Below are positions 2,587 to 30,236 of a stretch of 64,000 nt of DNA, piece by piece. Position 1 is the stretch's first letter. Each line of letters starts with the position of its first letter. Under the pieces are notes generated by a model. The model was not told the origin of the DNA, searched no databases, and was given only the letters and a program-made list of their open reading frames with translations. The position numbers and the translations under genes are program-made. Origin of the DNA: a bacterium. GTDB taxonomy: Bacteria > JAMCPX01. Location of the stretch: assembly GCA_021787665.1 (NCBI GenBank), contig JAJYLN010000002.1, positions 62,001 to 126,000 on the forward strand, read 5' to 3'.

Positions 2587-2598
2587 ATGCGGAGTCTG

Positions 2599-2619
2599 CC
2601 CTCTCCGTCTCGGAGAGGG
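2599..2619. repeat. Perfect 9-bp inverted repeat between leuA and leuC
   Basis: CCCTCTCCG and CGGAGAGGG flank a three-base loop, 12 bases after the leuA stop. No T-run follows, so it is unlikely to be an intrinsic terminator; it may stabilise mRNA or be a copy of the short G/C-rich palindromes scattered through the window. Confidence 0.6.
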
Positions 2620-2648
2620 AGAGAAGAATACAGAGAAAGGACAAGATT

Positions 2649-3935: not shown

Positions 3936-3943
3936 TTGATCAG

Positions 3944-3972
3944 AGAGGCGGGGTCACCCCTGCCCCTCCTAA
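3944..3972. repeat. G/C-rich imperfect palindrome between leuC and leuD
   Basis: A GAGG-CGGGG half faces a CCCC-TGCCCCTC half around TCA. It lies between the leuC stop and the leuD ribosome site without a T-run, and looks like another member of the short C/G-tract palindromes in this window. The assignment to one family is by eye. Confidence 0.45.
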
Positions 3973-3995
3973 ACACGAGATTACAGGAGACACAA

Positions 3996-4487
3996 ATGAT
4001 CATACGAGGTAACGCACATGTGTTCGGGGACGACATCGATACGGATGTGATCATCCCGGCGCGGTATTTGAACACCTTCGACCATGACGAGCTTTCTCGG
4101 CATGCGATGGAAGGGGTGAGCCCCCATTTTTACAAACGGGTGACCAAGGGAGACATCATCGTTGCCGGGGCGAACTTCGGCAGTGGCTCTTCGAGGGAGC
4201 ATGCCCCGATAGCGATCATGGCCACCGGTATTGCCCTAGTAATAGCGAAGAGCTTTGCACGGATATTCTACAGGAACGCGTTCAATATAGGGTTGCCGCT
4301 GCTCGAGGTAGGCGAGGGTACCGACAGGATAAAACAGGATACACCTCTTGAAGTTGATCTTGACACAGGCCTGATAAAAGAGCTTTTAACAAATACGGTG
4401 TACAAGGGCTCGCCCATTCCTGAGTTTATGCAGGAGCTCCTGAAGGCCGGTGGGCTGATGAACTATATGGAAAAGAAGATACGGTAG
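3996..4487 (+). CDS. leuD: 3-isopropylmalate dehydratase small subunit
   Basis: This 163-residue swivel-domain partner of LeuC completes the isopropylmalate isomerase active site. It shows [10 protein letters not shown] near residue 13 and the G-S-S-R-E-H-A-P motif near residue 62, which are diagnostic for small subunits of the aconitase superfamily. The frame is open upstream to 3936 through palindromic DNA, but the ATG at 3996 has an AGGAGA site 5 bases upstream and gives the length expected for the stand-alone LeuD class. It is followed four bases later by leuB. Confidence 0.94.
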
Positions 4488-4491
4488 AGAA

Positions 4492-5598
4492 ATGAAGAAA
4501 CGCATTGTTGTTTTTCCCGGAGACGGGATAGGGCCGGAGGTCGTTGGACAAGCGAAGAAAGTGCTCGTCAGGGCCGCGGAGATGGGCAGCCTTGCGCTCG
4601 ACGTGCAGGAGTTCCCGATAGGCGGGGCCAGCATCGATATCTTCGGGGTACCGCTAAAAGAGGAGTACCTGAAGGTCGCCAAGAGGGCCGACGCCGTCCT
4701 GCTCGGCGCTGTCGGGGGGCCTAAGTGGGACGTCGTGGAGCCGTCGATACGGCCGGAGCAGGCACTGCTCGCGTTGAGAAAGGGACTCAAGACCTACGCG
4801 AACCTGAGGCCGGCAAGGCCGTATTCTGCTCTGCTGAAGGCGTCCACGTTGAAGGAAGAGGTAGTAAAGGACGTGGACATACTCGTCGTCAGGGAGCTTA
4901 CCGGCGGCATATACTTCGGCAGGCCGCGGGGCATAAAGGACGGGAAGAAGGGGTACAACACGCTCGTCTACGATCGTAAAGAGATAGAGAGGATTGCCCG
5001 GAAGGCGTTCGACCTAGCAATGCTGAGGAAGAAGCACGTCACGAGCGTCGACAAGGCGAACATACTCGAGACCTCGATGCTCTGGCGGGAAGTCGTCAAG
5101 GAGGTGGCTGCGGGTTACCCGGCGATACGACTCGACCATATGTATGTCGATAACTGTGCCATGCAGATCATCCGGTCCCCGGGACAGTTCGATGTGATTC
5201 TTACCGATAATATGTTCGGGGACATCCTGAGCGACGAGGCGTCCATGCTGACCGGCTCCCTCGGTATGCTCCCTTCGGCGAGCATAGGAGACAAGAAGGG
5301 CCTTTTCGAGCCCATCCACGGCTCCGCACCGGACATAGCTGGCAAGGGCATCGCCAATCCTATCGCAACGATTGCGTCGGTCGCTATGATGCTGGAGTAT
5401 TCGTTCAGCAGGGTAGACCTTTCCGCTCTGATCGAGGAGGCAATCCAGGAGGTACTGCAGGACGGGCTGCGAACGAAGGACATCGACGACGGCAGCGGAG
5501 ACGTTGTCTCGACCGAGCGTATGGGAGAGGAAATAGTGAAAAGATTCGAGCACAGAGCGTCTCAGCGCGGGATCGGGAACGTAGGAAAGACAAAATAA
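4492..5598 (+). CDS. leuB: 3-isopropylmalate dehydrogenase
   Basis: This 368-residue enzyme oxidatively decarboxylates 3-isopropylmalate to 2-oxoisocaproate with NAD. It opens with [13 protein letters not shown], the family N terminus. [10 protein letters not shown] near residue 137 and the [11 protein letters not shown] metal site near residue 241 follow, then H-G-S-A-P-D-I-A-G. The substrate-pocket spacing suits LeuB rather than isocitrate dehydrogenase, and the operon position settles it. The start lies four bases after leuD with only a weak purine-rich ribosome site, so translation is probably coupled. Confidence 0.95.
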
Positions 5599-5621
5599 AG
5601 AGAACATAAGGAGTTTGCAAG

Positions 5622-6647
5622 ATGGGAAATAAGAGCTATTCGGTCGCGATTGCAGGCGCGACCGGTGCTGTCGGAAATGTGATGCTGCAACTGCTCGAGG
5701 AGCGGAAATTTCCGATACGGGAGCTGAAGCTCCTCGCATCGAACAGATCGAAAGGAAAGACCCTCAGGTTCAAGGGAGAGCATATATCCATAGAGGAGCT
5801 CGGTGACCGCTCGTTTACGGGCACGGAAATCGCGCTCTTTTCCGCGGGCGCATCGAGGAGCAAAGAGTTCGCAAGACGCGCCGTCGAGGCGGGCGCTGTC
5901 GTTATCGATAATAGCTCTGCGTTCAGGATGGAGCCGGACATACCGCTCGTGGTCCCGGAGATAAACCCAGACGCGATTAAGCAGTACAGGAAGACGGGGA
6001 TTATCGCAAACCCCAACTGTACGACCATCGTCACCCTGATGGGGGCAGCGCCCCTGCACAGGTACGGCAGGATAAAGCGCATGGTTGCCACGAGCTATCA
6101 GGCCGTGTCAGGCGCCGGCGCGAAGGCCATGGCGGAGCTCGAGACACAGGTCAGGGCATGGGCGAAGGGCGAGCCGCTGAAGGTGGAGGTATTCCCCTAC
6201 CAGATCGCGTTCAATGTACTGCCGCATATTGATGTTTTTCTCGAAAATGGATATACAAAGGAAGAGATGAAGCTGATAAACGAGTCGAGAAAGATACTGA
6301 ATGACCAGACCATAAAAGTCTCTCCAACGACGGTACGGGTCCCGGTGTTCAGGGCACACTCGGTCGCCGTCAACATACAGACGGAGAAGAAGATCACGAG
6401 GGCGAAGGCGATAGAGCTGATCCATGCGTTCCCGGGGGTACAGGTCGAGGACGACCCGCTGAACAAGAAGTATCCCATGCCGCTCTTCGTTGCCGGGCAG
6501 GACGACTGCTTCGTGGGCAGGATACGCGAGGACGACTCCGTCGAGAACGGCCTGAACTTCTGGGTGGTGGGCGATCAACTCAAGAAGGGCGCGGCACTGA
6601 ACGCGATCCAGATTGCGGAGCAGATGATAAAAGACGGGATGCTGTGA
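5622..6647 (+). CDS. asd: Aspartate-semialdehyde dehydrogenase
   Basis: This 341-residue enzyme reduces aspartyl phosphate to aspartate semialdehyde, the branch point to lysine/diaminopimelate, threonine and methionine. The N terminus has the NADP Rossmann motif G-A-T-G-A-V-G. The catalytic cysteine is in N-P-N-C-T-T at residue 133, and the substrate-binding H-S motif is in F-R-A-H-S. An AAGGAG site lies 8 bases before the ATG. It closes the leucine cluster; leu-asd adjacency is common in Desulfobacterota and relatives. The next gene starts inside its last codons. Confidence 0.95.
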
Positions 6648-8587
6648 ACGGAACCAGGGGAAAAGTGATAGGGTTGCTCGTAGCCGTGACCTTCGTGGCC
6701 ATGGCTGTAGGTACAGCGTATGCTTTTCCGAGCACAAAAGTCGCCTCGATAGGGGTGCACGCCGGACCCTACGGTATTGCAGCGAATGGGAACTACGCCG
6801 TCGTGGCAGGAAGCCAGTCTGGCTATATCGACATCATCAACCTCTCCAACGATACCGTTAGCTCCCATTATATCGGTCTGAACCCCTCCATGGTGACCAT
6901 CAGCGCGGATGGCTCTACGGCCTATGTCACCAACTACGGGAACAACGAGGTCTATAGCTTCAATCTGAACAACAGCGTTTTTACCACTTCCACGGTCATG
7001 GTGGGCAATAAGCCTATCGGCATTGCCATAGCCAATAACAGGGTGTTCGTGACGAATTATCAGGACGATACGTTCTCCTTCTTCCAGGCCGGCTCCTCCT
7101 CCGTAACCAATGTGAATACATGGAATGGAGGGCCCATCAGCATAGCCGCGGACTCGAGCGCTACCAATGTCTACGTGGCCAACAGTACCTCGAACGCCGT
7201 GAATGTGTTCCAGTACAATTATCTTGCCTCCAATACCTACGGCGTAAAGGCCACCGTTACGGTCGGCGCAACCCCGTCCGCGGTCTTGCTGTCGCCGCAT
7301 GGAAGGAAGCTGTATGTTGCCAATGCAGGTGACAACACGGTCTCCGTCATAGACACCACCTCCAGCTCATATCCCGTGACGACGATATCCCTCTCGTCTC
7401 TGGGCGGGCATCCGAATGCGCTTGCGCTGACGCCGGACGGCTACCTGATGGTCATCAATTCGCCGGTAGGCGGCATCACTGTCGTACAGACATCCAACGA
7501 TCAGGTCATCAGTACGTTCAACCTTGGTTCGTACCTCGACCAGGTGTTCCTGACACCGAGCGGCTCGGACGCGTATATAACGGACTTTGCTGCGAACCAG
7601 GTCTATGATCTCTCGAGCATCATTACGATAGCTTCAACGATACCCTCGGCGATAAATGCAACCACCAACGACGTCTCCACGATCGCATGGACCTCGACCA
7701 TGTCGGGTACCTATGAGGTCGAGATCGGAGGCAACGGGACGAAGGGCAGCGGCACCGTGATACCCGGTCGGGGAGGCTCCGTGTCAGCAGGACAGACCAT
7801 CGATACGCCGATATACGCGTCCGACTTTACCGGGGACCCGGATGGCCCGTACACGATATACCTTTATCTGACCGTGACGAGCCCGAGCCTGACCGCCTAT
7901 GCGTCCACGAATATCGACCTGCTGACCCATCTACCCGCAGCACCGCAGGGCCTGACAGCGCTACCGGGGGATAGCACGGCGAGCCTCAACTGGACGACGA
8001 CCAGCGCTTCCCAATATATCAGCGGATACACGGTATATTATTCCACGACAACGTTCGATGTAAACAACCTGCCGTCCAGTTCTGCAAACGCAGGTAATTC
8101 CAGTTCGTATACCCTGAAGGGCCTCACCAATGGTACCCTGTACTATATAACCGTGCAGGCTGAAGACATCGCCACCAACCTGAGCGCCTTGAGCAATACG
8201 GTGACCGTAACCCCTGTTTACATACCGAGTCCCGCAGCCCTCGCCGGTCAGAAGGGCAACTGCTTTATTGCGACCGCCGCATACGGATCATACGACGATT
8301 TCGACGTTTGGGTGCTCAGGCAGTTCCGTGACCGTGTCCTTCTCGTGAGCGGCCCGGGAAGATGGTTCGTCAGGACCTATTACCGGTTGAGCCCGCCTCT
8401 GGCCCATTTCATTGCAGGGCATGGAGCGCTGCGGGCCGTTGTACGGGGAATGCTGAAGCCGTTTGTGTACATGAGCATGGTAGTGCTCTATGGGACGTCA
8501 GCACAAAAGCTGACCATGCTGTTTCTGTCGATAGGTACGATGCTACTGGCGATAATTTTTCTTATGAGGAGAAACAGGTATGCTTAA
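6644..8587 (+). CDS. Secreted YVTN beta-propeller/Fn3 protein with CFI-box C terminus
   Basis: This is a 647-residue exported protein. A signal peptide (residues 1 to about 27, cut after A-Y-A) leads into a beta-propeller of the YVTN type with units such as [10 protein letters not shown] and [10 protein letters not shown] (about 30-330). A beta-rich linker and a fibronectin type III domain follow (about 430-525). At residue 540 is the [10 protein letters not shown] box of the CFI-box-CTERM family, followed by its conserved L-R-Q-F-R-D and S-P-P-L-A-H-F-I segments, one hydrophobic helix and a basic tail. The family is recognised by sequence only; its role, perhaps C-terminal sorting, is not established. 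The GTG start overlaps the asd stop. It overlaps the next gene by 8 bases, which suggests that the two act together. Confidence 0.75.
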
Positions 8588-16022: not shown

Positions 16023-16055
16023 AAATCTTCCTGATTTATTGATATATTGATCGTG

Positions 16056-19000
16056 ATGAAGGAAAGAAAGACCAAGGCCTACATATTCTATGGGATAATC
16101 TCGCTGATCGCGCTTGCGATTGTCGTCGTACTGAGAACGGATGTCATCGAGAACCTCTTCAAAGACAGGATAGCGCGGTTTATCTCGGAGAAGACCGGGA
16201 TCCAGATGTCCATCGGCAGGATAGACGTGTCCATCCTCTCGTCGAGCGTAACGCTTTCATCCCTTGCCCTCAAGAGCGACGGGACGACCGGTGCGGACAT
16301 ACGGAGGCTGACCTTCGTCCTGGAGCCACCGAGCATTTTTGCCCGCAAGCCGAGACTGAAGCTCCTGTCGATAGACGGGGCCGAGTTCTCGGCGACGATA
16401 AGCGCCGGCATGACCAGGGGGCTGACAAAGGGGATGCAGCGGAAGGGCCATGGCCTCGCTATGAGGGCGATAGCTGGCATACTCCCGGTGTCTCTGAACC
16501 ATGTCGTGGTGAAACATGCGTCCCTCTTGCTGAACGTGCCTGCTTACCGTACGAGCATCTGCGTGCGTGACGTATCGATGGACACTTATCCGGACCTGGA
16601 GGACAATACGATAAAGGGCTCGGTGGAGATGAAGGGGACGACGCTGACAAGGGCCGGTATCACGTTTACGGTGGCAGACCTCAAACTCGACGCCGGTCTG
16701 GACAACCGCGATATTTCGATACGCAGCCTGGACCTGCATGCTGATCACGTCAGACTCTCTGCGAGCGGCGTCATAAAGGACTACGAAAACCCCTGGCTCG
16801 CGCTGGACCTGAAGGCGTCGGTCGATCATATCGAGGGATTGGACCCTGTCCTGAAGGCCCTCCCTGTCTCGTTGCCGTACCTTGCGGGCAGCTATTCGCT
16901 CGACGGCAATATCAGGGGGAACCTTCTGGATCCGTCCTCGGCCGGCAGGATAGGCTTCGCCGATATGATGGTCGGCGGTATACGCGGCGGTTCCGGGACG
17001 ATCACCTATTCATTCAGGTCCGGCAGGATATTCATCAAAAACGGGGACGTCGACATTGCCGGGGGCAGGGTAAAGATGAAGGGGAAGGTCGACCTTTCGA
17101 ATAACAAAGTGCCGGCAGACCTTTCTCTCGACCTTGCCGGGATTAGCTTCGGCAGATTGCTCGATGCATTGACGGTATCCGGTCCCTATGTCGATGGCAA
17201 GATAACAGGACAGGTATCTGTACGGGGTACGTTCAATCCGGTGTTCCTATCGGGCAGCTCGAAAGTGCAGTTCAGAAGATTCTCGGTCTACGACGGTCCT
17301 TTCAACGGTAAGGGAAGACATACCATTATGGTCGTGAAGCCCGTCGATATCGCGACCGGTGTCATTTTTACGGACCGGTGCGCTTATATTACGGACACGA
17401 CGGTAACATCTGCACGGTCGCTCGTCCACGCCACCACTGCTTTATTCTTTACCGGCGCCATGCGCCTGAGCTTTGACTCTGACAAGGTGGATATGCAGGA
17501 CGTCAGTCCTATAGCGGACATCCCGTACACCGGCGTCGGCAGGGTGAAGGGGCTCATCGCGGGGCCGTTTACCGATATCGCTATCTACGGCGATACTGCA
17601 TTTCGCGATTTCAGCATGGAGCACATAAAGCTCGGCGCCGTGACCGGCGGTGTAGGCTTCAGAAAGGACACCCTGTCCCTGACATCGGTTCGGGCAGCGA
17701 CTGCCGCCGGGTCGCACCTGTATGTCGACGGCGGCATACGGTTTGCCAGCAGGGTCGGGCTCCGTTTCGGAGTAAAGTTCGCCCCCCTTGCTATGGTCGA
17801 TATCGCACGGAATGCAGGGATTACCCTGAGCACTGGCGGCTCCATAACCGGCAGCGCAACGCTCGACGGCCCTGCGCTTGCGATGAGCGGCGCTGCGGAC
17901 CTGCGCTTTTCGGAGCCAGATTTTTACTGGCAGTCATTCGATCGGGGAGACGTCAGGCTGCGTATAGATCGGGGGACGTTTCATATTGTCGGGGCGGAGT
18001 TCACACAAGGGCACAGTACGGTCCACGTCGGCGGCTCCCTGGCCGAGGACGGCACCGTCGACGTCGGCTTTTCCAGCGATGGGTTCGATGTCGCAGATAT
18101 CGATCCGGTGGTCAGGTCAGGCATGCCCCTGAAGGCGCGGGCGGCCTTCGATGGCCACATCAGCGGTACTACCTACGACCCGTTAGGAAGCGCCTCGGTA
18201 GAGATAAAGGACTTCTTTTATGACGGCAGCAGGATGCCGGACGCCTTGGCGCGCCTATCCCTTTCGCACGGCGTGCTCTCGATGATTTCCCGGCTTTTCG
18301 ACAGGTCCCTCGATGTTCGTGCAGGACTGGACCTGTCCCGGGGACACCCGTTCGAGCTGACGGCGTGGCTCCGCAGATTCAACGCGCTCCCCCTGACCTC
18401 TGTCCTCTTCGGGGCTGGGGTCACGTCCGACGTTACCGGCGAGCTGCGGTTTACCGGGAGGCTCAGCAGTATGCCGGACTCCCTGGTCGGCTCCGTCTAT
18501 CTGCCGACCATCGCTATCGGGGCTTCGTATGCGGTATTGCACAACAAGAGGCCGGTGTCCATAGACATTGCGAAAGACGACGTGCACGTCAGGGATTTTA
18601 CCATCGTCGGAAAGAACAGTGTTCTGAACATAAGCGGGTCCTATGGCCTGAAGGGGAGTGTCGATATGCTGGTCCATGCCGATATCGACCTCGACTATCT
18701 GCCGGTATTGACCAACGTCGTTGCCGGGGCGACCGGGAGCTTTAAGCTCGACACGCGGATCTCTGGACGGGGAAAGAACATCGCCCTGCATGGCGGTGCC
18801 GATCTGAACGGCGATGCGACTTTTGCAGATCTGCCGTTGACGCTGTCCGGCGTCCATCTGTCCGTGGTCATGGCCGGCAACACTATCATGGTGAAGACCC
18901 TGACCGGGAACATCAATGCCGGTACGATGTACGGGAGCGGGAGGATCATTACCGCGGGGTTCCTGCCGGGCATTTTCAGTCTCTCCCTTTCGTTCAAGGG

Positions 19001-20051
19001 CATGAATTATGTCTACGACAACACTATACCCCTCCTGCTCGACGGCGATCTCGGCATCAAGGGTACATATCCGTCGCCCGTACTCGAGGGCAATATCAAG
19101 GTCGTGAATGCGGTCTATACGGACTATATCAACTGGGAAGACCAGATGCTGAAGTTCCAGCACAGGAGGTATGAGCCCGAAGGTCTCGAGCACAAGGGCG
19201 GACATCCCCTGAGGCTGAATGTCGGCATAGAGGCCAACAACAGTATCGTCGTCGACAACAACATCATCGATACCGTGCTCAGTGCTGAGCTCAAAGTCCT
19301 CGGTAACGTCGATGACCCGGTCATCGTGGGCAACGTCTCCACGAACGAAGGCAGGATCTACTATCGGTCTACCACCTTTAAGGTCGACCAGGCACTGGTG
19401 ACCTACACCCGGGAACACCCCCGCAACCCGTTCGTGGATCTGAGGGCGTCCACGTCCCAGCGGTTCCTGGTAGACAGTCAGGCTGGAACCCCCGAATACT
19501 CGGACTACAGGATCTACCTTACCATCGCCGGAGAGCTCGACAAGCTGAATGTCAATCTGACCTCGAACCCTCCCAACCTCGGTGAGATGGACATCATCAG
19601 CGAGCTCACCTACGGCGTGACCACTGCAGACCTCATGAAGAGCGGCGTAAGCTCAGCCGCTGCCTACGAGGTCGGTACAGCGGTGGGGAGTAAGCTTGCG
19701 AAGGACATCTTCTCGAACATCATCGGCAGCGAAGGCCTGAATAAGCTAAAGAAAATATTCTGGTTCGACAACCTCCAGGTAGAACCCTACTATCCTCTCG
19801 GTGCCTTGGGCATGCCCACCACGAGCATACGACTCACCGTGACGAAGAGGATCTCCAACAAGTTCAATATACTCTATTCCAACGACCTGAGCGGCTACAA
19901 CCTGCAGCGCTTCCAGGGGGAGTATAAGCTGAGCAGGAGGCTTTATTTTATCGGGAGCTGGGACAACAGTTACCTCGATTCGCAGTCGAACACGAGCAAC
20001 AGCGGCATCGGCGATCTGGGCGGTGACATAAAGTATAAGTACGAGTTCTGA
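16056..20051 (+). CDS. tamB: TamB-like translocation/assembly protein (DUF490)
   Basis: This is a 1,331-residue AsmA/TamB-type protein. An N-terminal membrane anchor (about 8-28) is followed by a long periplasmic beta-rich region with repeated strand pairs, as in AsmA/DUF490 proteins thought to form a hydrophobic groove for lipid or protein transfer between membranes. The C-terminal 350 residues match the TamB domain: N-P-F-V-D-L-R-A-S, the G-E-L-D-K-L-N-V-N-L-T-S-N-P-P segment, and a terminal K-Y-E-F resembling an outer-membrane strand. The ATG at 16056 is preferred over TTG 16047 and GTG 16053, although no clear ribosome site is visible. The Omp85 gene follows two bases later, so the pair is a TamB-TamA unit. 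Confidence 0.85.
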   Translation: MKERKTKAYIFYGIISLIALAIVVVLRTDVIENLFKDRIARFISEKTGIQMSIGRIDVSILSSSVTLSSLALKSDGTTGADIRRLTFVLEPPSIFARKPRLKLLSIDGAEFSATISAGMTRGLTKGMQRKGHGLAMRAIAGILPVSLNHVVVKHASLLLNVPAYRTSICVRDVSMDTYPDLEDNTIKGSVEMKGTTLTRAGITFTVADLKLDAGLDNRDISIRSLDLHADHVRLSASGVIKDYENPWLALDLKASVDHIEGLDPVLKALPVSLPYLAGSYSLDGNIRGNLLDPSSAGRIGFADMMVGGIRGGSGTITYSFRSGRIFIKNGDVDIAGGRVKMKGKVDLSNNKVPADLSLDLAGISFGRLLDALTVSGPYVDGKITGQVSVRGTFNPVFLSGSSKVQFRRFSVYDGPFNGKGRHTIMVVKPVDIATGVIFTDRCAYITDTTVTSARSLVHATTALFFTGAMRLSFDSDKVDMQDVSPIADIPYTGVGRVKGLIAGPFTDIAIYGDTAFRDFSMEHIKLGAVTGGVGFRKDTLSLTSVRAATAAGSHLYVDGGIRFASRVGLRFGVKFAPLAMVDIARNAGITLSTGGSITGSATLDGPALAMSGAADLRFSEPDFYWQSFDRGDVRLRIDRGTFHIVGAEFTQGHSTVHVGGSLAEDGTVDVGFSSDGFDVADIDPVVRSGMPLKARAAFDGHISGTTYDPLGSASVEIKDFFYDGSRMPDALARLSLSHGVLSMISRLFDRSLDVRAGLDLSRGHPFELTAWLRRFNALPLTSVLFGAGVTSDVTGELRFTGRLSSMPDSLVGSVYLPTIAIGASYAVLHNKRPVSIDIAKDDVHVRDFTIVGKNSVLNISGSYGLKGSVDMLVHADIDLDYLPVLTNVVAGATGSFKLDTRISGRGKNIALHGGADLNGDATFADLPLTLSGVHLSVVMAGNTIMVKTLTGNINAGTMYGSGRIITAGFLPGIFSLSLSFKGMNYVYDNTIPLLLDGDLGIKGTYPSPVLEGNIKVVNAVYTDYINWEDQMLKFQHRRYEPEGLEHKGGHPLRLNVGIEANNSIVVDNNIIDTVLSAELKVLGNVDDPVIVGNVSTNEGRIYYRSTTFKVDQALVTYTREHPRNPFVDLRASTSQRFLVDSQAGTPEYSDYRIYLTIAGELDKLNVNLTSNPPNLGEMDIISELTYGVTTADLMKSGVSSAAAYEVGTAVGSKLAKDIFSNIIGSEGLNKLKKIFWFDNLQVEPYYPLGALGMPTTSIRLTVTKRISNKFNILYSNDLSGYNLQRFQGEYKLSRRLYFIGSWDNSYLDSQSNTSNSGIGDLGGDIKYKYEF

Positions 20052-20053
20052 AG

Positions 20054-22882
20054 GTGTCCCTCCCCAAGCCCATAATCGCTTTTTTCGTGTTGGCGGTCTC
20101 TCTGTCCTTTATTCCCCGTGTCTCTGTGGCGTCCGCTGTTCAGGACGTCGGCTCATATAACGGCATGCCCGTGTCCGGCACAACACTCGATTTTCCGCCG
20201 GGCGTGAGGACCAGGAGCATCAAGCAGCTCATCTTGACTCGGCCGGGCAAGCCCTTCAGCATGGACGATGCGGACGATACCCTGAGGCTCATCTATTCTA
20301 CCAACCAATGCTCGAACGTCGGCCTCGGCATAACGACTGCCGGCCGGGATGTATTCCTCACGTACACCTGCGTGCCCATCGTCTCGGTGTCCAGTATAGA
20401 GTTCCACGGCGTGGAGAGCGTGTCCATCAAGGCCCTCGATCATGCGGTCTCCTTGCCGCAGGGAACGGCCTTCTATGCCTTCCTGCTCGGCGTCATAAAG
20501 AAAAGGGTGATCAGGTTCTACCATGACAACGGATTTATGAAGCCGGTCGTAACGGTCTTCTTTACGCAGACATCGTACCGTACCGGTGATGTGACCGTGG
20601 ACGTCCGGGAGGGGAGACCGGTGCTCGTACGAGCCGTAACATTTACCGGTAACCCGGTACTGAGCAGTGTGGCGCTGGCCGGTGAGATACCCATAGCACC
20701 AGGCAAGCGGCTCGAAAAAAAAGGCCTGGACGGGGTGATTGGCGCGCTCGAGGCGTACTATCATTCCCGGGGCTACTGGCAGGCGTACATAGAGAAGCCC
20801 ACGGTCGTCTACTCGGAGGACCTCGGGGAGGCGTACGTCGACGTCCGTATCAATGCAGGGCCTGTGTATGTCTTCGAGTTCAGGGGCGCGAGGCACCTGT
20901 CCGAAGCCGGTCTCCTCGACATCATCGGTATCAGCAAGGGCGGAGGATACCTGAACTTCGAGATCTACAGGATTCGGTTGGAGGACTACTTCAAGGACCG
21001 GGGATACTATTTCTGTACCGTGAAATATGCCGTGGCGAGAAAGAAGCGGATACATGTCGTCTTTACCATAACCATGGGCAGGAAGATCTACATCGCGGGC
21101 ATATTCTTCAGCGGCAACAGCCATATCCGGACCTCTGCGCTGCAGGCGCAGATGTTGACACGGCCGTGGCGCATCTATGCCTATATCTACGATTACACGT
21201 ACAACGGTGTCCTTGCGCCCCGGCGGTTTGAGAACGACATCAAGGCAATCATCTACCTTTACAAGATACACGGCTTTCTCAACGTGAAGGTGCGCGACGT
21301 GAAGATAGCCTTCGTCGACCCGAGAAAGGAGTGGATCAACGTGACCATCGTCATCGACGAGGGCGCCCAGACGACCGTAAACAGCGTGCGGGTAGACGGC
21401 GTATCGCAGGCGATGAACAGTCAGGTCATGGACATCATCGGCCGAATCAAGACCAAGGTGCCGTTCAATGTATGGCAGGTGCAGGACGCGAAGCGGAAGA
21501 TAGAGCAGGTTTATTTCTCCCATGGCTATGTCAATGCAGGGGTAGGGTACGACTATATGATACGGAAAGACCGGGCGGACGTATCGTTCCTCATTCACGA
21601 GGGATCGCGGATTTCCATAGGGAAGGTCATCATCGCCGGGAATACGAAGACTGCGACGTGGGTTATTCGGAGGAACCTCGAATTCAGGACCGGCATGTAT
21701 TTCGTTCCGGACAGCATCATCCACAGCAGGATAAATCTCCTGAAGACCGGCTATTTTGAGAGCGTCGCTATCAAGCCCGTCCCGGACAAAAGGCTCAGGA
21801 ACACGGTGGACATAGACGTGATCGTGAGGGAGCGCAAGACCAAGGGCATTTCCGGATCCGTCGGCTATGGTACCGTGGAAGGATACCGTGCGGCTGTCGA
21901 TCTGTACGATAATAATATTTTCGGTACGGCACGGTCGCTGAATTTCCACGCGGGCGGGGCCGTGCAGCCCGCGGTATATGCGTTCAGGAAGATGTTTAAT
22001 TTCCATAACTACACCACGACCGAGAGGGACCTTGAGCTCGGGTACAGAGAAAACTATCTTCTGAATACCGGGGTGACCGGCAGCATAGACCTGATCGATT
22101 CCTATGTAAAAAATCTATGGGTAGGGTATGGCCTGAAGAGCGAGAGCGCCGTGGTGGGTCTGAACAGGAACATCGGCTCGGCATGGAAGCTCTCCCTGCA
22201 GTACGACTTCGAGATACGGGAGCCCACGGACGTGCAGTCGACAAAATATCTGAACCCTGCGGACTACGAGCAGAGACAGCTCGGCATCGTGTCCCCGATC
22301 ATACTGCTCGACGAGCGCAACGATCCGTTCAACCCTACCAATGGCTTCCTGCAGGTCCTGAGGGTGGACTGGGCCAAGCGCTGGCTTCTGTCGCAGGAAG
22401 AATACCTGAAGCTGTACTATGCCGCAACGAAGTACATACCGATAGCGAGCTGGGTGACGTACGTCCTGTCGATCAGGGGCGGGTACGCATGGCCGATGGG
22501 AACGACGGTAGATCTCCCCATTGAGAAGAGGTTCTATCTCGGTGGCGGTACCACCATACGGGGCTTCGCAGAAGATTCGGTGGGTCCCCGGACGGACGGC
22601 ACGTACCTCGGCGGGGACATCATGCTCAACTACCAGACGGAGTTCAGGATCAAGCTCATCGACAACTTCGACGGCGTCGTATTCACAGACGGCGGAAACG
22701 TCTGGTCGTCTCCGGCCACCTTCGAGTTGAAGGGCATGCACGATATAAGAAAGACCGCGGGTGTCGGCATACGGTATGTGACGCCGGCCGGGGCATTGAA
22801 CCTCGACGTGGGCTTCAAGCTGGACCGGAGGCCCGGGGAAGACCCCACGGCATGGAATTTCTACATCGGTACGGTGCTGTAG
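20054..22882 (+). CDS. Omp85/TamA-like outer-membrane protein with about seven POTRA domains
   Basis: This is a 942-residue Omp85 protein. A signal peptide ends near residue 27 (V-A-S-A). POTRA-type units end in short strands such as I-E-F-H-G, V-T-F-T-G, F-E-F-R-G, I-F-F-S-G, V-R-V-D-G and V-I-I-A-G. Counting them gives about seven domains over residues 35-600, against three in TamA and five in BamA. The C-terminal 340 residues are the barrel, with the conserved lid motif G-G-G-T-T-I-R-G-F near residue 830 and a family-like end. The GTG start lies two bases after tamB, so the two are co-translated and probably work together in inserting outer-membrane proteins or moving lipid. BamA is the alternative, but tamB adjacency favours TamA. 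Confidence 0.85.
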   Translation: MSLPKPIIAFFVLAVSLSFIPRVSVASAVQDVGSYNGMPVSGTTLDFPPGVRTRSIKQLILTRPGKPFSMDDADDTLRLIYSTNQCSNVGLGITTAGRDVFLTYTCVPIVSVSSIEFHGVESVSIKALDHAVSLPQGTAFYAFLLGVIKKRVIRFYHDNGFMKPVVTVFFTQTSYRTGDVTVDVREGRPVLVRAVTFTGNPVLSSVALAGEIPIAPGKRLEKKGLDGVIGALEAYYHSRGYWQAYIEKPTVVYSEDLGEAYVDVRINAGPVYVFEFRGARHLSEAGLLDIIGISKGGGYLNFEIYRIRLEDYFKDRGYYFCTVKYAVARKKRIHVVFTITMGRKIYIAGIFFSGNSHIRTSALQAQMLTRPWRIYAYIYDYTYNGVLAPRRFENDIKAIIYLYKIHGFLNVKVRDVKIAFVDPRKEWINVTIVIDEGAQTTVNSVRVDGVSQAMNSQVMDIIGRIKTKVPFNVWQVQDAKRKIEQVYFSHGYVNAGVGYDYMIRKDRADVSFLIHEGSRISIGKVIIAGNTKTATWVIRRNLEFRTGMYFVPDSIIHSRINLLKTGYFESVAIKPVPDKRLRNTVDIDVIVRERKTKGISGSVGYGTVEGYRAAVDLYDNNIFGTARSLNFHAGGAVQPAVYAFRKMFNFHNYTTTERDLELGYRENYLLNTGVTGSIDLIDSYVKNLWVGYGLKSESAVVGLNRNIGSAWKLSLQYDFEIREPTDVQSTKYLNPADYEQRQLGIVSPIILLDERNDPFNPTNGFLQVLRVDWAKRWLLSQEEYLKLYYAATKYIPIASWVTYVLSIRGGYAWPMGTTVDLPIEKRFYLGGGTTIRGFAEDSVGPRTDGTYLGGDIMLNYQTEFRIKLIDNFDGVVFTDGGNVWSSPATFELKGMHDIRKTAGVGIRYVTPAGALNLDVGFKLDRRPGEDPTAWNFYIGTVL

Positions 22883-22970: not shown

Positions 22971-25124
22971 TCAATGGCGTGTCCGGTATACGCACCGCAC
23001 ACCGACGAAGTCGAGCTGTCGTGAGGGAGAGCTGTTGTAGCGCAAGGATGCACGCAGGAGCGAAGGATAGCCGGCGTCCCATGATCCGCCCCGCAGTATG
23101 CGGTAAGCCCCCCTCGAGGGGCCGGCTGGGTTACGGACCGGCGCGCTGGTGTAGTCCATGCCGTACCAGTCAGCACACCAGTCCGCCACGTTACCTGCCA
23201 TGTCCATGACCCCGTAGGGGCTCCTGTCCAAAGGATAGCTTCCTATCCTGCAGGTATGGTCATGGCTGCACGGGCTCACCGAGTTACAGCTCCTGTTACA
23301 GTTCCCCTTGTTGCCCCAGGGGTATATCCTTCCGTCCGTACCCCGCGCTGCCTTTTCCCACTGTGCCTCCGTAGGTAATTGCTTGCCAGCCCATCGGCAG
23401 TAGGCATTCGCCTGGTCCCAGTCGACGCAATTTATAGGGTCGTCCCCTCTGCCCGGTACCCCGGCATTGCACCCGCTCCCGGTAGCGGCCGTGGTGCAAC
23501 CACCCGCGCGGACACACTTCGTGTATTCGTTCGTCGTTACATCGTCTTTGTCGATAAAGTACGCATCGAGATATACCAGATGATACGGCTTCTCGTTGTC
23601 CATACAAGTCGTGTCGTTCGGACTGCAGCCCATCCAGAACCAGCCCGCCGGGACGTAGGCCATGGGGCCACCTTTGGTCCCCGCAGGAACGGCTTCCCGT
23701 GCGGTGCGCGGTGCGTGCCGGCTTGCTCTCACCGGGACTTCCTGCATGTCTTCTGCTGCACGCTGGAGCGACTCGCCTCCGAGATAACCCATCCGGGACG
23801 TTGTGGCCTTCATACCCTCGATCCGCTTGAAGAAGTCGACACCGTTGGTCAGCCAGCGGCTCTGATCCACGGTGATGAGGCACATCGAAGTGGCTATCGT
23901 GAGCAGGAGCAGCCCGTAGATCGATTTGCCCGGATACCCCTGGATAATCTCGTACAGCTTCGCCAACAGGATCCCGGTTATCGCTGCGAGCCCGGCATAC
24001 GGCAGGGTCAGGTAGTGGTCTATCCCCTGGAAGATGAAGCCACTCGGAGTCAGGGTCGGAACATTGCCTATCCCGCTGCCGGGCAGGAAATTGGCACCGT
24101 ACCAGAGCAGCCAGAAGGTCACCGGAGGTGCGCTCGTCCTGTAGCGCCATGCTAGGGAGGCGATCAGCGCGAGGAAAAGTATGGAGAGAATCACGAACGG
24201 GCTTGACCATCTCAGCATGGGCCAGTGGGTGTAGTAGGAGTTTATGAACAGGGGAAGGATCTGGTTGTGGGGATAGGTAAACAGACCGGCCGTGTTGATA
24301 ATCGCCATCTGGAGATGATAGAGAAACGGGACGCTGTTCCCGCCTTCGACCGGGCGCAGCAGGAAAAGGTAGGAGAGGGCGAATCCGAAACCGATACCCA
24401 CGAGGACAATGTATCCTTTGTATGCCTTCTTGAGCTTCCCGCGGTAGAAGAGCAGATCGTATATGAAAAACATTACCGGCAGCATGAATGCCGTGCCCTT
24501 GCTCATCAGGGCCATACACCACAGGAACAGGCCGGCTACGAGACGCCTCCGGTCGTCCGTCTGCCGGTAGCGAATGTAGCAGAGAAACGAGGAGAATATG
24601 AAGAGGTCGGCGAGCGTGGTCTTCATCTCCGCCACGAACATGACGGTCTCGCTCTGTATCGGATTGATGATATAGAACAGGCCTGCCAGCACACCCGCGT
24701 ACTTGTTGCCGGTCATCCTCCACAGGATAAGGTACAGGAGAACGCCGTCGGAAACTTGCAGGAAGACGTTGGCCATATGGAACGCCGGGGAGTTGAGTCC
24801 GAAGAGCTGGTACAGGACCATGTAGGCCATGATGTGCAGGGGGGCCCATTTGTCCGTGAACGTATGGGTGAATGCGGCGACGATGTTGGTAAGGCTGACC
24901 CCGCGGATGTAGGGGTTGAATACGATATAGAACATATCGTCCACGTAGAATTGCGAGATAAACAGGGCCTGATAGAGGAACAGGCCGAGGGTCAGGAAGA
25001 CCATGGAAACCATGATGGTGAACGTGGCGTCCGGCCGGGTATTGGACAGGTACCTTTGTCTGAGTTCCTCCCCCTGCCGGTTTACCGTGGCCCTGGAAGA
25101 AATACTTGTTCCTTTATCTTTCAT
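22971..25124 (-). CDS. GT-C glycosyltransferase fused to SUMF1/FGE-like domain
   Basis: This is a 717-residue fusion. Residues about 36-450 form many membrane helices with a GT-C-type acidic motif (Y-V-D-D-M-F-Y) after the first helix and the segment P-L-H-I-M-A-Y ... G-L-N-S-P-A-F-H, then I-N-P-I-Q-S-E-T-V, as in TMTC-like lipid-linked glycosyltransferases. Residues 485-717 are a SUMF1-superfamily domain: P-A-G-W-F-W-M-G-C, L-P-T-E-A-Q-W-E-K-A-A-R, D-M-A-G-N-V-A-D-W, L-R-G-G-S-W and a G-V-R-C-V end. The paired active-site Cys of true formylglycine-generating enzymes are missing, but 13 other Cys suggest a disulfide-rich extracytoplasmic domain. The ATG at 25124 has AAGGA upstream; the open extension to 25331 crosses repeats. 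No sulfatase is nearby. Confidence 0.78.
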   Translation of the reverse strand: MKDKGTSISSRATVNRQGEELRQRYLSNTRPDATFTIMVSMVFLTLGLFLYQALFISQFYVDDMFYIVFNPYIRGVSLTNIVAAFTHTFTDKWAPLHIMAYMVLYQLFGLNSPAFHMANVFLQVSDGVLLYLILWRMTGNKYAGVLAGLFYIINPIQSETVMFVAEMKTTLADLFIFSSFLCYIRYRQTDDRRRLVAGLFLWCMALMSKGTAFMLPVMFFIYDLLFYRGKLKKAYKGYIVLVGIGFGFALSYLFLLRPVEGGNSVPFLYHLQMAIINTAGLFTYPHNQILPLFINSYYTHWPMLRWSSPFVILSILFLALIASLAWRYRTSAPPVTFWLLWYGANFLPGSGIGNVPTLTPSGFIFQGIDHYLTLPYAGLAAITGILLAKLYEIIQGYPGKSIYGLLLLTIATSMCLITVDQSRWLTNGVDFFKRIEGMKATTSRMGYLGGESLQRAAEDMQEVPVRASRHAPRTAREAVPAGTKGGPMAYVPAGWFWMGCSPNDTTCMDNEKPYHLVYLDAYFIDKDDVTTNEYTKCVRAGGCTTAATGSGCNAGVPGRGDDPINCVDWDQANAYCRWAGKQLPTEAQWEKAARGTDGRIYPWGNKGNCNRSCNSVSPCSHDHTCRIGSYPLDRSPYGVMDMAGNVADWCADWYGMDYTSAPVRNPAGPSRGAYRILRGGSWDAGYPSLLRASLRYNSSPSRQLDFVGVRCVYRTRH

Positions 25125-25447: not shown

Positions 25448-27538
25448 GTGGATACCAACCCATCCATCCAATACATAAAGGGCGTGGGCCCCGGGAGGTC
25501 CCGCCTGTTCGAGAGGAAGGGCGTTACGGACCTCGTATCGCTCGTACACTTTTTCCCGGTCAGGTATGAGGACCGGAGGCGGATCATCGGGATAGGAAGC
25601 GTGAGGTACGGCAGGAAGGAGGTGGTCGTCGGTGAGGTGTACAGGGCCAGTATAAAGAAGGCCAGGGGCAGGAGCATCTTCGAGGTGATCATACGGGACG
25701 ACACAGGCTACCTTGCGCTGGTCTGGTTCCATTTCGAGTACGCATACATGGTCAAGAGGTTTAGGAGTGGATCCCGCATTCTTGCGTACGGGGACATCGG
25801 CTCTTTCGGGAACATGCCGCGTATGATACATCCGGACATCGAAGAGTTCGATCGTACCGGCGATGATACCCTCAGCTTTGGACGGATAGTCCCCGTGTAC
25901 CCCGCGTTAGAGGGTATGTCGCAGCGGATCGTGAGGAAGATCATGAAGGTTGCACTCGATACCCACGTAGGAACCCTGTCCGAATACCTGCCGGAGGCGG
26001 TCAGGAGGCTGTACACACTGCCCGGCTTCTCTGAATCGATCTACGGCCTCCATTTCCCCGGAGACGAAGTCTCGGTGGAGGCGCTGAACCAGCAAACGTC
26101 CCCGTTCCACCGGCGCATCAAGTTCGACGAGTTCTTCTTCTTCGAGATGGCGCTCGCCATAAAAAAGAGGCAGAGCAGGCACCGGGACGGCATCGTCTTT
26201 TCGCCGTCCGCTTCCGGCATGATGGACGCCTTCGAAAAGGGCCTCCCGTTCTCGCTTACCGACGATCAGAGGCGCGTCGTCGGGGAGATCTCGGGCGACC
26301 TCGCCTCCGGCTACCCCATGAACAGGCTTCTGCAGGGAGACGTGGGCAGCGGCAAGACAGTCGTAGCACTTTATGCAGCCGTGCTTGCCATCGGCAACCA
26401 CTACCAGGTGGCCTTCATGGCACCTACGGAGATCCTGGCCGAGCAGCACCTCAGAACCATCGGGTCACTGACGCGGGGCATGCAGGTCCGCTCTGCACTG
26501 CTGAAGAGCGATACGAAGCCTGCCGAGAGGAAGCGGATCCTCGGAGAGCTCTCCGACGGCACGCTCGGCCTCATCGTGGGTACCCATGCGCTCCTCCAGC
26601 CGGAGGTCAGATTCAGGAACTGTGGCCTGATTGTCATAGACGAGCAGCACCGGTTCGGCGTCGTTCAGCGGATGGAACTCAAGAAGAAGGGGAACAACCC
26701 GCATATGCTGATCATGACGGCGACCCCGATTCCCAGGACGCTTTCCATGACCGCATACGGGGACCTCGATATCTCCATCATACGACAGATGCCGCCCCAC
26801 CGGAAGCAGGTGCGGACCCTGCTCTTTTACCGGAAGGCACAGAGACAGGGGATCTATGATCTCCTGCGCCAGGAGATGCAGAAGGGCCGTCAGGTGTATG
26901 TGGTCTATCCGCTGATAGAGGAGTCCGATGCCATCGAGCTCTTGGCGGCCACGAAGATGTACGAGGAGCTCAAGAGGGAGTTTTACGGCTTCAGGGTGGA
27001 GCTCCTGCACGGTAAGGTCAGGGGCGAAGAGCGCGAACAGCGCATGGCTGATTTCAAGGAAGGCAGGATCAGCATGCTGGTCGCGACCACCGTCATAGAG
27101 GTGGGCGTCGACGTGCCCAACGCGACCGTCATGTTCATCGAGCATGCCGAGAGGTTCGGGCTCTCGCAGCTCCACCAGCTCAGGGGCAGGGTAGGGAGGG
27201 GTGCCGAGCAGTCGCTCTGCATCCTCTATGCGCACAGCCTTACCGCAGAGGCGCACAAGCGGCTCGATGCCATGGTCAGGACGAGCGACGGATTCAGGAT
27301 AGCCGAGATGGACCTCGAGATACGGGGGCCCGGGGAGATGCTCGGCATTAAACAGTCCGGCATGCCGGATTTCAGAATGGCGAGCATCGTCAGGGACATC
27401 GATATACTCAAGACGGCGCGGGACGCGGCGTTCGACGTGGTGAACGGCGTCGTCGCGCTCGATAGATCGGACAAGCTGATGCTGTACCACCACCTGCGTG
27501 GCTACGGCTCCAGGGCGGTCAGTCTGATAGGGGTGTAA
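25448..27538 (+). CDS. recG: ATP-dependent DNA helicase RecG
   Basis: This 696-residue helicase remodels stalled replication forks and branched recombination intermediates. It has the N-terminal wedge region (I-K-G-V-G-P near residue 10, Y-E-D-R-R-R near 38), Walker A G-D-V-G-S-G-K-T near residue 297, the RecG form of Walker B D-E-Q-H-R-F-G near 398 and motif III T-A-T-P-I-P-R-T. The C-terminal helicase half carries Q-L-R-G-R-V-G-R-G. The GTG start follows a GGGGGAAGG site closely. It stands alone between repeat-rich DNA and a convergent gene. Confidence 0.96.
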   Translation: MDTNPSIQYIKGVGPGRSRLFERKGVTDLVSLVHFFPVRYEDRRRIIGIGSVRYGRKEVVVGEVYRASIKKARGRSIFEVIIRDDTGYLALVWFHFEYAYMVKRFRSGSRILAYGDIGSFGNMPRMIHPDIEEFDRTGDDTLSFGRIVPVYPALEGMSQRIVRKIMKVALDTHVGTLSEYLPEAVRRLYTLPGFSESIYGLHFPGDEVSVEALNQQTSPFHRRIKFDEFFFFEMALAIKKRQSRHRDGIVFSPSASGMMDAFEKGLPFSLTDDQRRVVGEISGDLASGYPMNRLLQGDVGSGKTVVALYAAVLAIGNHYQVAFMAPTEILAEQHLRTIGSLTRGMQVRSALLKSDTKPAERKRILGELSDGTLGLIVGTHALLQPEVRFRNCGLIVIDEQHRFGVVQRMELKKKGNNPHMLIMTATPIPRTLSMTAYGDLDISIIRQMPPHRKQVRTLLFYRKAQRQGIYDLLRQEMQKGRQVYVVYPLIEESDAIELLAATKMYEELKREFYGFRVELLHGKVRGEEREQRMADFKEGRISMLVATTVIEVGVDVPNATVMFIEHAERFGLSQLHQLRGRVGRGAEQSLCILYAHSLTAEAHKRLDAMVRTSDGFRIAEMDLEIRGPGEMLGIKQSGMPDFRMASIVRDIDILKTARDAAFDVVNGVVALDRSDKLMLYHHLRGYGSRAVSLIGV

Positions 27539-27584: not shown

Positions 27585-30236
27585 TCAGTTATTCCCGCCG
27601 CCCGCGAATTGCGGACCCGTGACCGGGAAGAACTGCGGACCCGTCGTCGCACTGACAAGCTCGGCCACAGTACCCGAGTATTGCCAATTGGTGACCCAGA
27701 CGTTTCCGGATGCATCAATGGCTATACCTTCGGGGGCAGCACCAGCGAGGAGATATGACCCTATGAGTTCGCCCGCAGGATTCAATTCTGTTACCGTGCC
27801 GTCACCGTCATTTGCAACCCAGACATTGCCCTTGTGATCGATCGCAATGCCTTCCGGCCCTGAACCTACAGGATACGTACCGATGGTTACACCCATCCCA
27901 CTCAATTCGGTTACGTTATTACCGCCATTATTCGCAACCCAGACATTGCCCTGCTGATCGATTGCAATGCCTTCAGGTCCGGAACCCACGCCATACGTGC
28001 CGATAGTTATACCGGTCGAGCTTAATTCGGTTACCGTCCCATCCCAAGAGTTTGTAACCCAGACATTGCCCGTGAAATCTATGGCAACGCCCCATGGATA
28101 GTTGCCAACGGTGTAGGTATAGGCAATGCCCGTTGTCGTGATGTATTCGACCACTGTGTTACGGCTTCCTCCTTCGTCCGAAGCCCAGACATTGCCCGAT
28201 GCGTCTATGGCAAGGTTACTCAGTCCTGAGCCTATGGGATAGGTCACGTTCGTGCCCGCGGTACCTATTTCGGTGGCCCCTCCATATTCCGAACCCGGGA
28301 CCCAGACATCGCCTGCGGCGTCTATGGCTATGCCCCAAGGATATGAGACAACGGTGTAGGTCAACGTGGTACCTGCAACAGTCAATTCATTTACCGTGCC
28401 GTCAGATTGGTTAACAATCCACACATCGCCGGATGCATCTATAGCAACGCCTGCCGGGTAGTTGCCGACCAGATAGGAATTGATAGTGACGGGTAGGGCG
28501 CTCGTTTGATTGGAATATCCGGACTCGCCCTTGCTGTAAGCGGCGGTAACGACGAAGTAGTACCGGGTGCCGTCGGTCAGCGGCGATACCGTGTAGCCTG
28601 TTGTCGTTGTAAAACCTACATAGTTGTAAGGCCCGCCTGATATTGTCGAATCATACACCTTGTAACCCGTAATACCGGCCTTCATCTCTGTTACCGTGTT
28701 ACTACCGTTATTCGCAATCCATATATTGTCGTTAGAATCTATCGCTATGCCCGCAGGACCACTGCCCACCGTATAGGTGCCTGCGGTGACATATCCGCTC
28801 GTCGTAGAGGTTATTTCGGTGACATTACCACTCCCATTATTGGTGACCCAAACATCTCCCGAGGCGTCTATTGCAATATCTTCTGGGGATGAACCTACAT
28901 TATAGGTGCCTGCAGTGACATATCCGCTCGTTGCAGCGGTTATTTCAGTGACATTTCCACTACCATTATTGGCGACCCAAACATTCCCCGAGGCATCTAT
29001 TGCAATACCTACTGGGTATGAACCTACATTATAGGTGCCTGCGGTGACATATCCGCTCGTCGTAGAGGTTATTTCAGTGACACTACTACTAAGATTATTG
29101 GTGACCAAAACATTCCCCGAGGCGTCTATCGCAATACCTTCTGGGTATGAACCTACATTATAGGTGCCTGCAGTGACATATCCGCTCGTCGTAGAGGTTA
29201 TTTCAGTGACCTGACCAACAGCATTATCATCGGTGACCCAAATATTGTTCGAAGAGTCTACCGCTATCCCCCATGGCTGTGTATTGAAACTATAGATACC
29301 TATGGTTGTGCCCGCAGGGCTTAACTCGGAAACATAGTTGCTCCTATAATTCGCAACCCAGATATTGCCTGAATGATCTATCGCTATGCCTGCAGGACCA
29401 TTACCCACCGTATAGGTGCCTATGGTCGTACCCGCCGGACTTAATTCACTTACGGTGTTACTATTATTATTGGTGACCCATGCATCCCCCGATGCGTCTA
29501 TTGCTATACCCCATGGCCCTGAACCCACGGAATACGTATTCCAGCTCAGTGATACCTGCGAATCACCCGCAACCGCTACAAGGTTATTTGGGCCCGGTAC
29601 AGCCGGCGTGGCGCTCACCTCATTCGAGTATCCGCTCTCCCCTATACTGTTCACCGCGGTAACCACGAAGTAGTATTTGGTATCGTTCGTAAGCCCCACT
29701 ACCGTATCATTAAGATTTATTGTTGAGGTTATTTTTACGTACCCGCTCCCAGAGGTCGTGGACTCATAGACATTGTAGCTCGTTGCTCCCACGGATGCGC
29801 TCCAGGTCAGGGTAACCTGTGTATTCCCTGCCACTGCAACAAGATTGGTTGGTGCTGCAGGTGTAGTCGTCGGGGACGCAGGTGTTGCACTCACCTCGTT
29901 GGAGTATCCGCTCTCGCCCGCGCCGTTGACTGCCGTGACCACGAAGTAATACTTCGTCCCGTTGGTCAGCCCGGTCACCACGACGTTGGTATTGGTGGTT
30001 GAACTGATCCTTTTGTAAGGGCCTCCCGTGGTCGTTGCATCATAGACGTTGTAGCTCGTTGCTCCCTTTGAAGCGCTCCACTGCAGGGTTACCTGCGAGT
30101 TTGCCGGCGTTGCCGTAAGACCAGCAGGCGCTAAAGGCTTTGAACCGGAACTCTTGGAACTTCCCGAACAACCTGCCATGACTATCATGGCAAGTATACC
30201 AATCGTTATAAACGTAAAAATGGTTTTTGCACGCAT
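27585..30236 (-). CDS. Lipoprotein with Fn3 domains and two beta-propeller blocks
   Basis: This is an 883-residue lipoprotein with lipobox V-M-A-G-C (Cys23). Two Fn3 domains (about 34-120 and 127-212) are followed by the first strands of a third (217-233, S-Q-V-S-L-S-W-N). A Vgb/NHL-type propeller of about seven blades comes next (234-521, units like G-I-A-I-D-A-S-G-N-V-W-V-A-N-N), then the rest of the third Fn3 (522-582, starting I-T-G-Y-K-V-Y-D-S-T). A second propeller of similar length fills 583-883. Four blades in the first block are near-identical 43-residue copies. An AAAGGAG site and a TTGACA promoter lie upstream. It probably binds ligands or partners at the cell surface; lyase activity is not implied. 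Confidence 0.8.
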   Translation of the reverse strand: MRAKTIFTFITIGILAMIVMAGCSGSSKSSGSKPLAPAGLTATPANSQVTLQWSASKGATSYNVYDATTTGGPYKRISSTTNTNVVVTGLTNGTKYYFVVTAVNGAGESGYSNEVSATPASPTTTPAAPTNLVAVAGNTQVTLTWSASVGATSYNVYESTTSGSGYVKITSTINLNDTVVGLTNDTKYYFVVTAVNSIGESGYSNEVSATPAVPGPNNLVAVAGDSQVSLSWNTYSVGSGPWGIAIDASGDAWVTNNNSNTVSELSPAGTTIGTYTVGNGPAGIAIDHSGNIWVANYRSNYVSELSPAGTTIGIYSFNTQPWGIAVDSSNNIWVTDDNAVGQVTEITSTTSGYVTAGTYNVGSYPEGIAIDASGNVLVTNNLSSSVTEITSTTSGYVTAGTYNVGSYPVGIAIDASGNVWVANNGSGNVTEITAATSGYVTAGTYNVGSSPEDIAIDASGDVWVTNNGSGNVTEITSTTSGYVTAGTYTVGSGPAGIAIDSNDNIWIANNGSNTVTEMKAGITGYKVYDSTISGGPYNYVGFTTTTGYTVSPLTDGTRYYFVVTAAYSKGESGYSNQTSALPVTINSYLVGNYPAGVAIDASGDVWIVNQSDGTVNELTVAGTTLTYTVVSYPWGIAIDAAGDVWVPGSEYGGATEIGTAGTNVTYPIGSGLSNLAIDASGNVWASDEGGSRNTVVEYITTTGIAYTYTVGNYPWGVAIDFTGNVWVTNSWDGTVTELSSTGITIGTYGVGSGPEGIAIDQQGNVWVANNGGNNVTELSGMGVTIGTYPVGSGPEGIAIDHKGNVWVANDGDGTVTELNPAGELIGSYLLAGAAPEGIAIDASGNVWVTNWQYSGTVAELVSATTGPQFFPVTGPQFAGGGNN
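28786..29177 (-). repeat. 129-bp tandem repeats coding propeller blades
   Basis: The block GTGACATATCCGCTCG starts at 28786, 28915, 29044 and 29173, exactly 129 bases apart. The three full intervals between them differ at few positions. Each unit codes one 43-residue blade, so copy number can change by in-frame recombination or slippage. Confidence 0.9.

Follow-up and report, generated by a model that had tools for sequence, protein, structure and literature searches.

Why would a polytopic membrane glycosyltransferase end in a domain of the formylglycine-generating enzyme (FGE, SUMF1) fold that lacks the cysteines of that enzyme? The question is raised by a 717-codon gene of an uncultivated bacterium in the window, by which we mean the whole 64,000-nucleotide stretch of DNA that was analysed (contig JAJYLN010000002.1, positions 62,001 to 126,000). 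An earlier note, made from the sequence alone, had described a GT-C glycosyltransferase joined to a SUMF1-type domain. That description held at 22971-25124, where the frame of 717 codons is open, the C-terminal half matches PF03781 and the N-terminal half is modelled with a GT-C fold.

The fusion gene and its locus

The gene, its parts and its neighbours are arranged as follows.

22971..25124, minus strand: whole fusion gene, 717 aa; ATG at 25124, stop at 22971, frame open throughout
23787..25124, minus strand: GT-C glycosyltransferase part, residues 1-446, as assigned from an AF2 model (VIA Z up to 19.8) and the orthologue L009
23664..23804, minus strand: linker, residues 441-487, the second half of which resembles juxtamembrane linkers of membrane-anchored SUMF1 paralogues (BLASTP)
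22974..23663, minus strand: FGE/SUMF1 (C-type-lectin-fold) domain, residues 488-717, PF03781, with the FGE Cys pair missing
25448..27538, plus strand: recG, divergent neighbour, which also adjoins the GT-C gene in the congener G008
20054..22882, plus strand: Omp85/POTRA outer-membrane protein, convergent neighbour, absent from the equivalent place in G008

Two separate genes joined by a sequencing error, an outcome that the earlier note had named as fatal to its reading, were not seen. Nor do we think it at all likely that a GT-C gene was wrongly joined to an unrelated SUMF1 gene during assembly. Such a chimera would fit the fact that the fusion is known from one draft assembly only, and that the orthologue in G008 has no SUMF1 part and different genes downstream. 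However, the gene sits on a 253-kb contig without a frame break across the linker, the GC3 of the GT-C half (0.79) and of the SUMF1 half (0.72) fits that of three neighbouring genes (0.74-0.81), and the junction DNA is present in a single copy in the genome, so that a repeat, the usual cause of chimeric assembly, is absent.

The glycosyltransferase half

The GT-C part matches no Pfam family significantly. Residues 1-446 were modelled with AlphaFold at moderate confidence (pLDDT 63, pTM 0.69). The model aligns to yeast STT3, Pmt4 and ALG12, ArnT and PglB over ~310-340 residues with VIA Z of 14-20, and the rows for GT-C enzymes stand well above unrelated rows; Foldseek alone places the same GT-C families on top with weak E-values. 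On this model, residues 1-446 have a GT-C fold of the oligosaccharyltransferase/PMT/ArnT-like kind. Its putative active site is marked by one short motif:

24936..24941, minus strand: Asp62-Asp63, acidic DD motif of the first extracytoplasmic loop, putatively catalytic and invariant in relatives

Both aspartates are invariant in all six aligned GT-C sequences, and their place in the first outer loop is that of the DD in TMTC and of the D/E in ArnT and PMT (PMC7801869). K209 is also invariant and, by eye, falls at the position of the lysine of the TMTC KET motif. The conserved DD, together with purifying selection on the orthologue pair (dN 0.19, dS 0.83), favours a working enzyme over a mere anchor, and suggests that this half acts as a membrane glycosyltransferase. 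The model has ~11 TM helices, counted by eye, and the N-terminus is positively charged; with the N-terminus inside, this count would probably put the C-terminus, and with it the SUMF1 domain, outside the cytoplasm, as the earlier note had supposed.

Among the relatives of this half within the phylum, the GT-C part is mostly followed by TPR repeats (e.g. L018, L014, L083), and two close paralogues carry a C-terminal SLBB (L002:1492-3711, plus strand) or SLBB-like domain (L017:141-2537, plus strand). The C-terminal extension of the GT-C part is thus exchangeable. A scan of a collection of genome contigs with the single fusion protein found no relatives; the same scan with an alignment found six loci, two from the congener and the rest distant GT-C proteins, with TPR present in those followed to the gene end. 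The label "TMTC-like", which had been given to this half, is apt in a broad sense, since relatives in the phylum join GT-C to TPR. Like the TMTC O-mannosyltransferases and bacterial GT-C + TPR proteins, the fusion protein has an N-terminal GT-C part of ~450 aa with DD in the first outer loop and a C-terminal accessory domain that is expected to lie outside. Unlike them, it has SUMF1 in place of TPR repeats, which are absent (PF03781 is the only Pfam match above threshold), TMTC_DUF1736 has no match in it or in any GT-C family member scanned, and the Arg before TM10 of TMTC is not evident by eye. As a separate observation, the SLBB-bearing GT-C gene L002 adjoins a gene for a separate SLBB-like protein; SLBB is another unusual C-terminal partner for this GT-C family.

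The SUMF1 half

The domain matches the Pfam FGE-sulfatase model PF03781 at residues 488-712 (E=1.1e-49, 169.9 bits against a gathering threshold of 23.3). In a phmmer alignment to the FGE of S. coelicolor (2q17), one gap and one Pro stand opposite the FGE Cys pair, and no pair equivalent to the two active-site cysteines of the human enzyme (C336/C341) occurs in the RGGSW-to-GFRC loop of any of ten aligned local domains. Judged from these alignments, a copper FGE site is excluded, and we rejected an active copper FGE because the pair is missing both here and in the local family. The absence of the pair and the 13 other cysteines (all within residues 500-711) are as the earlier note had reported. 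They are not peculiar to the fusion; the missing pair and most of the 13 cysteines are common to the whole local SUMF1 family, in which eight cysteines are conserved without exception across the ten aligned copies and further ones are nearly invariant. We infer that the family cysteines are structural disulfides. In the full-length AF2 model, most of the SUMF1 part has pLDDT of about 30-45.

The domain could instead be a catalytic pseudo-relative that converts the product of the glycosyltransferase by some other redox reaction of the EgtB or PvdO type, an idea to which the many conserved cysteines and the matches to the NCBIfam EgtB, SenA and PvdO models lend something. We consider it highly improbable. 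The scores are just 13-27% of the cut-offs, with the full-length EgtB and SenA equivalog models reaching 96.5 bits where 360 are required and 89.6 where 420 are required, and in the case of EgtB just the C-terminal portion of the model is matched. Moreover, the hypervariable region described below is the equivalent of the FGE active-site loop, which is hard to square with one conserved reaction. An EgtB-type enzyme as such was rejected on the same scores. The protein thus shares a homologous PF03781 domain with FGE but differs from it in the absent Cys pair, the membrane tether to a GT-C part and the hypervariability of the active-site-equivalent loop. With FGE catalysis absent, we hold a binding domain to be more likely, in line with the earlier proposal that the domain recognises rather than oxidises.

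Related SUMF1 domains (52-64% identity) are encoded elsewhere in this genome and in G008, G001 and G003, attached to a Hanks-type Ser/Thr kinase (L034), to a zinc ribbon and TM segment (L003, L044), or to TM or other N-termini (L004, L039, L046). By these architectures the domain is a promiscuous module in the local genomes. Two SUMF1 loci deserve separate mention. In G008 (contig C134), L034:1489-3591, on the minus strand, combines a zinc ribbon, a Ser/Thr kinase and the same variable SUMF1 domain, an architecture that has been reported for cyanobacterial targets of diversity-generating retroelements (DGRs). The genome of the fusion itself also contains, at L005 / L007 (G000:C21:28804-29124), the relics of another SUMF1 gene, interrupted by in-frame stops.

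A hypervariable loop with DGR-type codons

The informative feature of the domain was missed by the earlier reading.

23004..23078, minus strand: hypervariable C-terminal loop, residues 683-707 (DAGYPSLLRASLRYNSSPSRQLDFV), defined by entropy and DGR-type codons

Between RGGSW and G(F/V)RC nearly every residue varies among the aligned domains, apart from conserved Leu, Arg and Pro residues that form a scaffold; mean entropy is 1.8 bits in the loop against 0.9 elsewhere. In DGR systems, the AAY codons of a template are mutated at adenines, so that variable codons retain their third base (PMC6328139). A region-based test covered 11 loops, involved no choice of columns and disregarded codons for Arg, Pro, Leu, Met and Trp; its expectation came from how the same amino acids are encoded further upstream in each gene. 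C is the last base of 116 codons, where 62.6 are expected (z=8.6), and all 11 loops lie above expectation. When 16 columns are picked by entropy only, the count is 96 against 66 (z 5.3), whereas these proteins vary at 42 other columns as well, and there the count falls below expectation (101 vs 144, z -5.0). When the test is run in sliding form against a same-genus background, the signal appears at the C-terminus only, and more weakly (z about 3.5). The models behind these expected values ignore relatedness among the sequences, so all z values are indicative. The signal of the window's own loop, taken alone, is modest: 10 codons against 5.3 in the region-based test, and 10 of the 16 columns (P about 0.05). 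Phe in the variable columns is almost always encoded by TTC, while TTT prevails at a conserved Phe that follows a few codons later.

As a positive control we used L105, a viral contig (IMGVR_UViG_3300029624_000205) bearing a DGR target with reverse transcriptase and template repeat. It encodes large FGE-type variable proteins (2148-5522, plus strand) and a DGR-type reverse transcriptase (5613-6761, minus strand), and over the best-aligned 90 bases of template and loop, 13 of 13 mismatches fall at template adenines. Its loops have the same excess of C-ending codons (12 vs 7.3 and 12 vs 6.7), and five viral relatives with another loop type (L096, L099, L107, L109 and L113) have no such excess. 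Judged by its codons, the loop carries the pattern that DGR adenine mutagenesis leaves. Features of DGR variable proteins are present here: a CLec/FGE-type domain with its variable region at the extreme C-terminus and, across the family, AAY-type variation. The domain looks, and probably works, like that of a DGR target. The same codon test flags DGR-type variable domains in genomes without the retroelement. Independently of the window, SUMF1 proteins on the viral contigs L092 (4845-5831), L100 (4629-10208) and L101 show a strong C-ending excess (16 vs 6.6; 13 vs 6.1); no DGR reverse transcriptase was found by motif scan of the stretch examined, and we regard them as candidate DGR targets.

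Search for DGR machinery

No DGR-type reverse transcriptase was found in nine genomes of the phylum, which are 80-99% complete (92.7% for the genome of the fusion). The only two reverse transcriptases seen, in G003 and G006, were rejected by eye as DGR type, one being group II intron-like and the other unrelated. Nor was a template repeat found in the nine genomes: queries with the variable region itself, the AAY pattern and a consensus template returned just known coding copies or chance matches. For these reasons we refrain from classing the gene among DGR targets. Synonymous sites are saturated between the SUMF1 paralogues, and in the scaffold codons the third positions differ from copy to copy, which argues against recent rewriting from one shared template. 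Each paralogue may have had its own template, or the machinery may lie in unassembled DNA or have been lost.

These results bear on the possibility that the protein is an ordinary fusion with a non-DGR SUMF1 binding domain, whose loop reflects the usual divergence of paralogues and whose C-ending codons reflect local codon selection. The missing reverse transcriptase and template repeat, the saturated synonymous sites and the widespread occurrence of SUMF1-like domains would all be expected if this were so. However, codon selection does not readily explain an excess that is confined to the C-terminal loop and absent or reversed at other variable columns, that is common to the DGR control target and absent from the five relatives of another loop type, and that separates Phe codons in variable columns from those of a conserved Phe nearby. 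We consider an ordinary fusion possible but rather unlikely.

Origin of the fusion

In G008 (contig JAMCVD010000126.1), the one congener examined, the orthologue L009 is 71-72% identical and lies beside the same divergent recG. It stops right after the GT-C part, at ...KPPTVRLKLPDQ, and is followed by a TolC-like gene. Because this orthologue lies beside the same recG and has no SUMF1 domain, we infer that the SUMF1 part was probably a recent graft, gained after the split from the G008 species; the alternative is loss in G008. A search for the same architecture, which the earlier note had proposed as a check, found the combination of GT-C and SUMF1 in one genome only among the nine of the phylum.

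Homology to membrane-anchored SUMF1 paralogues begins inside the linker, at residue 463 for L074 and 451 for L003 (BLASTP), although the linker portion of both alignments is weak. This pattern fits, and suggests, an origin in which the GT-C gene acquired the end of a gene for a membrane-anchored SUMF1 protein without that protein's own anchor. No donor paralogue could be named from the branching of a SUMF1-domain tree.

A grafted binding head

Taken together, these observations make it reasonably probable that the protein is a GT-C membrane glycosyltransferase with a grafted C-terminal FGE-type C-type-lectin-fold domain of the DGR-variable-protein kind. The GT-C part would hold the SUMF1 domain outside the membrane, where the latter would act as a binding head and bind a ligand through its variable loop. 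The SUMF1 domain might bring an acceptor or target to the GT-C active site, probably the role of the TPR repeats in relatives that carry them; alternatively, it might use the GT-C part chiefly as an anchor. The loop would have been diversified by a DGR whose machinery has since been lost or lies in unassembled DNA. A bolder extension, which we think unlikely, is that the bacterium, through mutations in one loop of the hypervariable domain, can turn its periplasmic or surface glycosylation towards new targets, the source of these mutations being lost or unassembled.

An FGE-type CLec domain with a C-terminal variable region is a structurally established DGR scaffold (PMC6328139), and in cyanobacteria CLec domains are grafted to kinases and other N-termini within one genome, with ligand sensing or substrate choice proposed by the authors for the kinase grafts (PMC7517822). 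Like TvpA of Treponema (2y3c) and TaqVP of Thermus, the fusion has an FGE-type domain at the extreme C-terminus, a hypervariable loop after RGGSW, no FGE triad and codons consistent with AAY-derived variation; unlike them, it comes with no reverse transcriptase or template repeat that could be found, its N-terminal partner is a polytopic GT-C enzyme, and its domain is distant in sequence from that of TvpA (phmmer E=3e-16). As with the cyanobacterial CLec paralogues (kinases, caspases), one C-terminal module is shared by unrelated N-termini, including the Ser/Thr kinase L034 in G008, but glycosyltransferases are not among the listed cyanobacterial partners (PMC7517822) and no resident DGR was found here. 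We found no glycosyltransferase-SUMF1 protein and no glycosyltransferase-DGR variable protein in the open-access literature, which agrees with the earlier remark that no standard pathway is known for this fusion. Grafted CLec variable domains are thus already known; the glycosyltransferase partner appears to be new and is represented by one occurrence. So far, DGR-type CLec domains have mostly been known from receptors, adhesins, kinases and conflict proteins. If the reading is true, their joining to a polytopic glycosyltransferase would extend targeted diversification to the modification of glycans or glycoproteins.

Other genes in the window

The Omp85/POTRA gene that converges on the fusion forms a pair with a TamB-like gene (16047-22882, plus strand); the pair is also present in G003 and G007, and in G008 just a distant Omp85 relative (27%) was found. 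Beyond recG, 27585-30236 on the minus strand encodes a probable lipoprotein with fibronectin III and NHL/virginiamycin-lyase-like propeller repeats in near-identical units, and 44337-49823, also on the minus strand, encodes a protein of 1828 aa that consists largely of TPR repeats.
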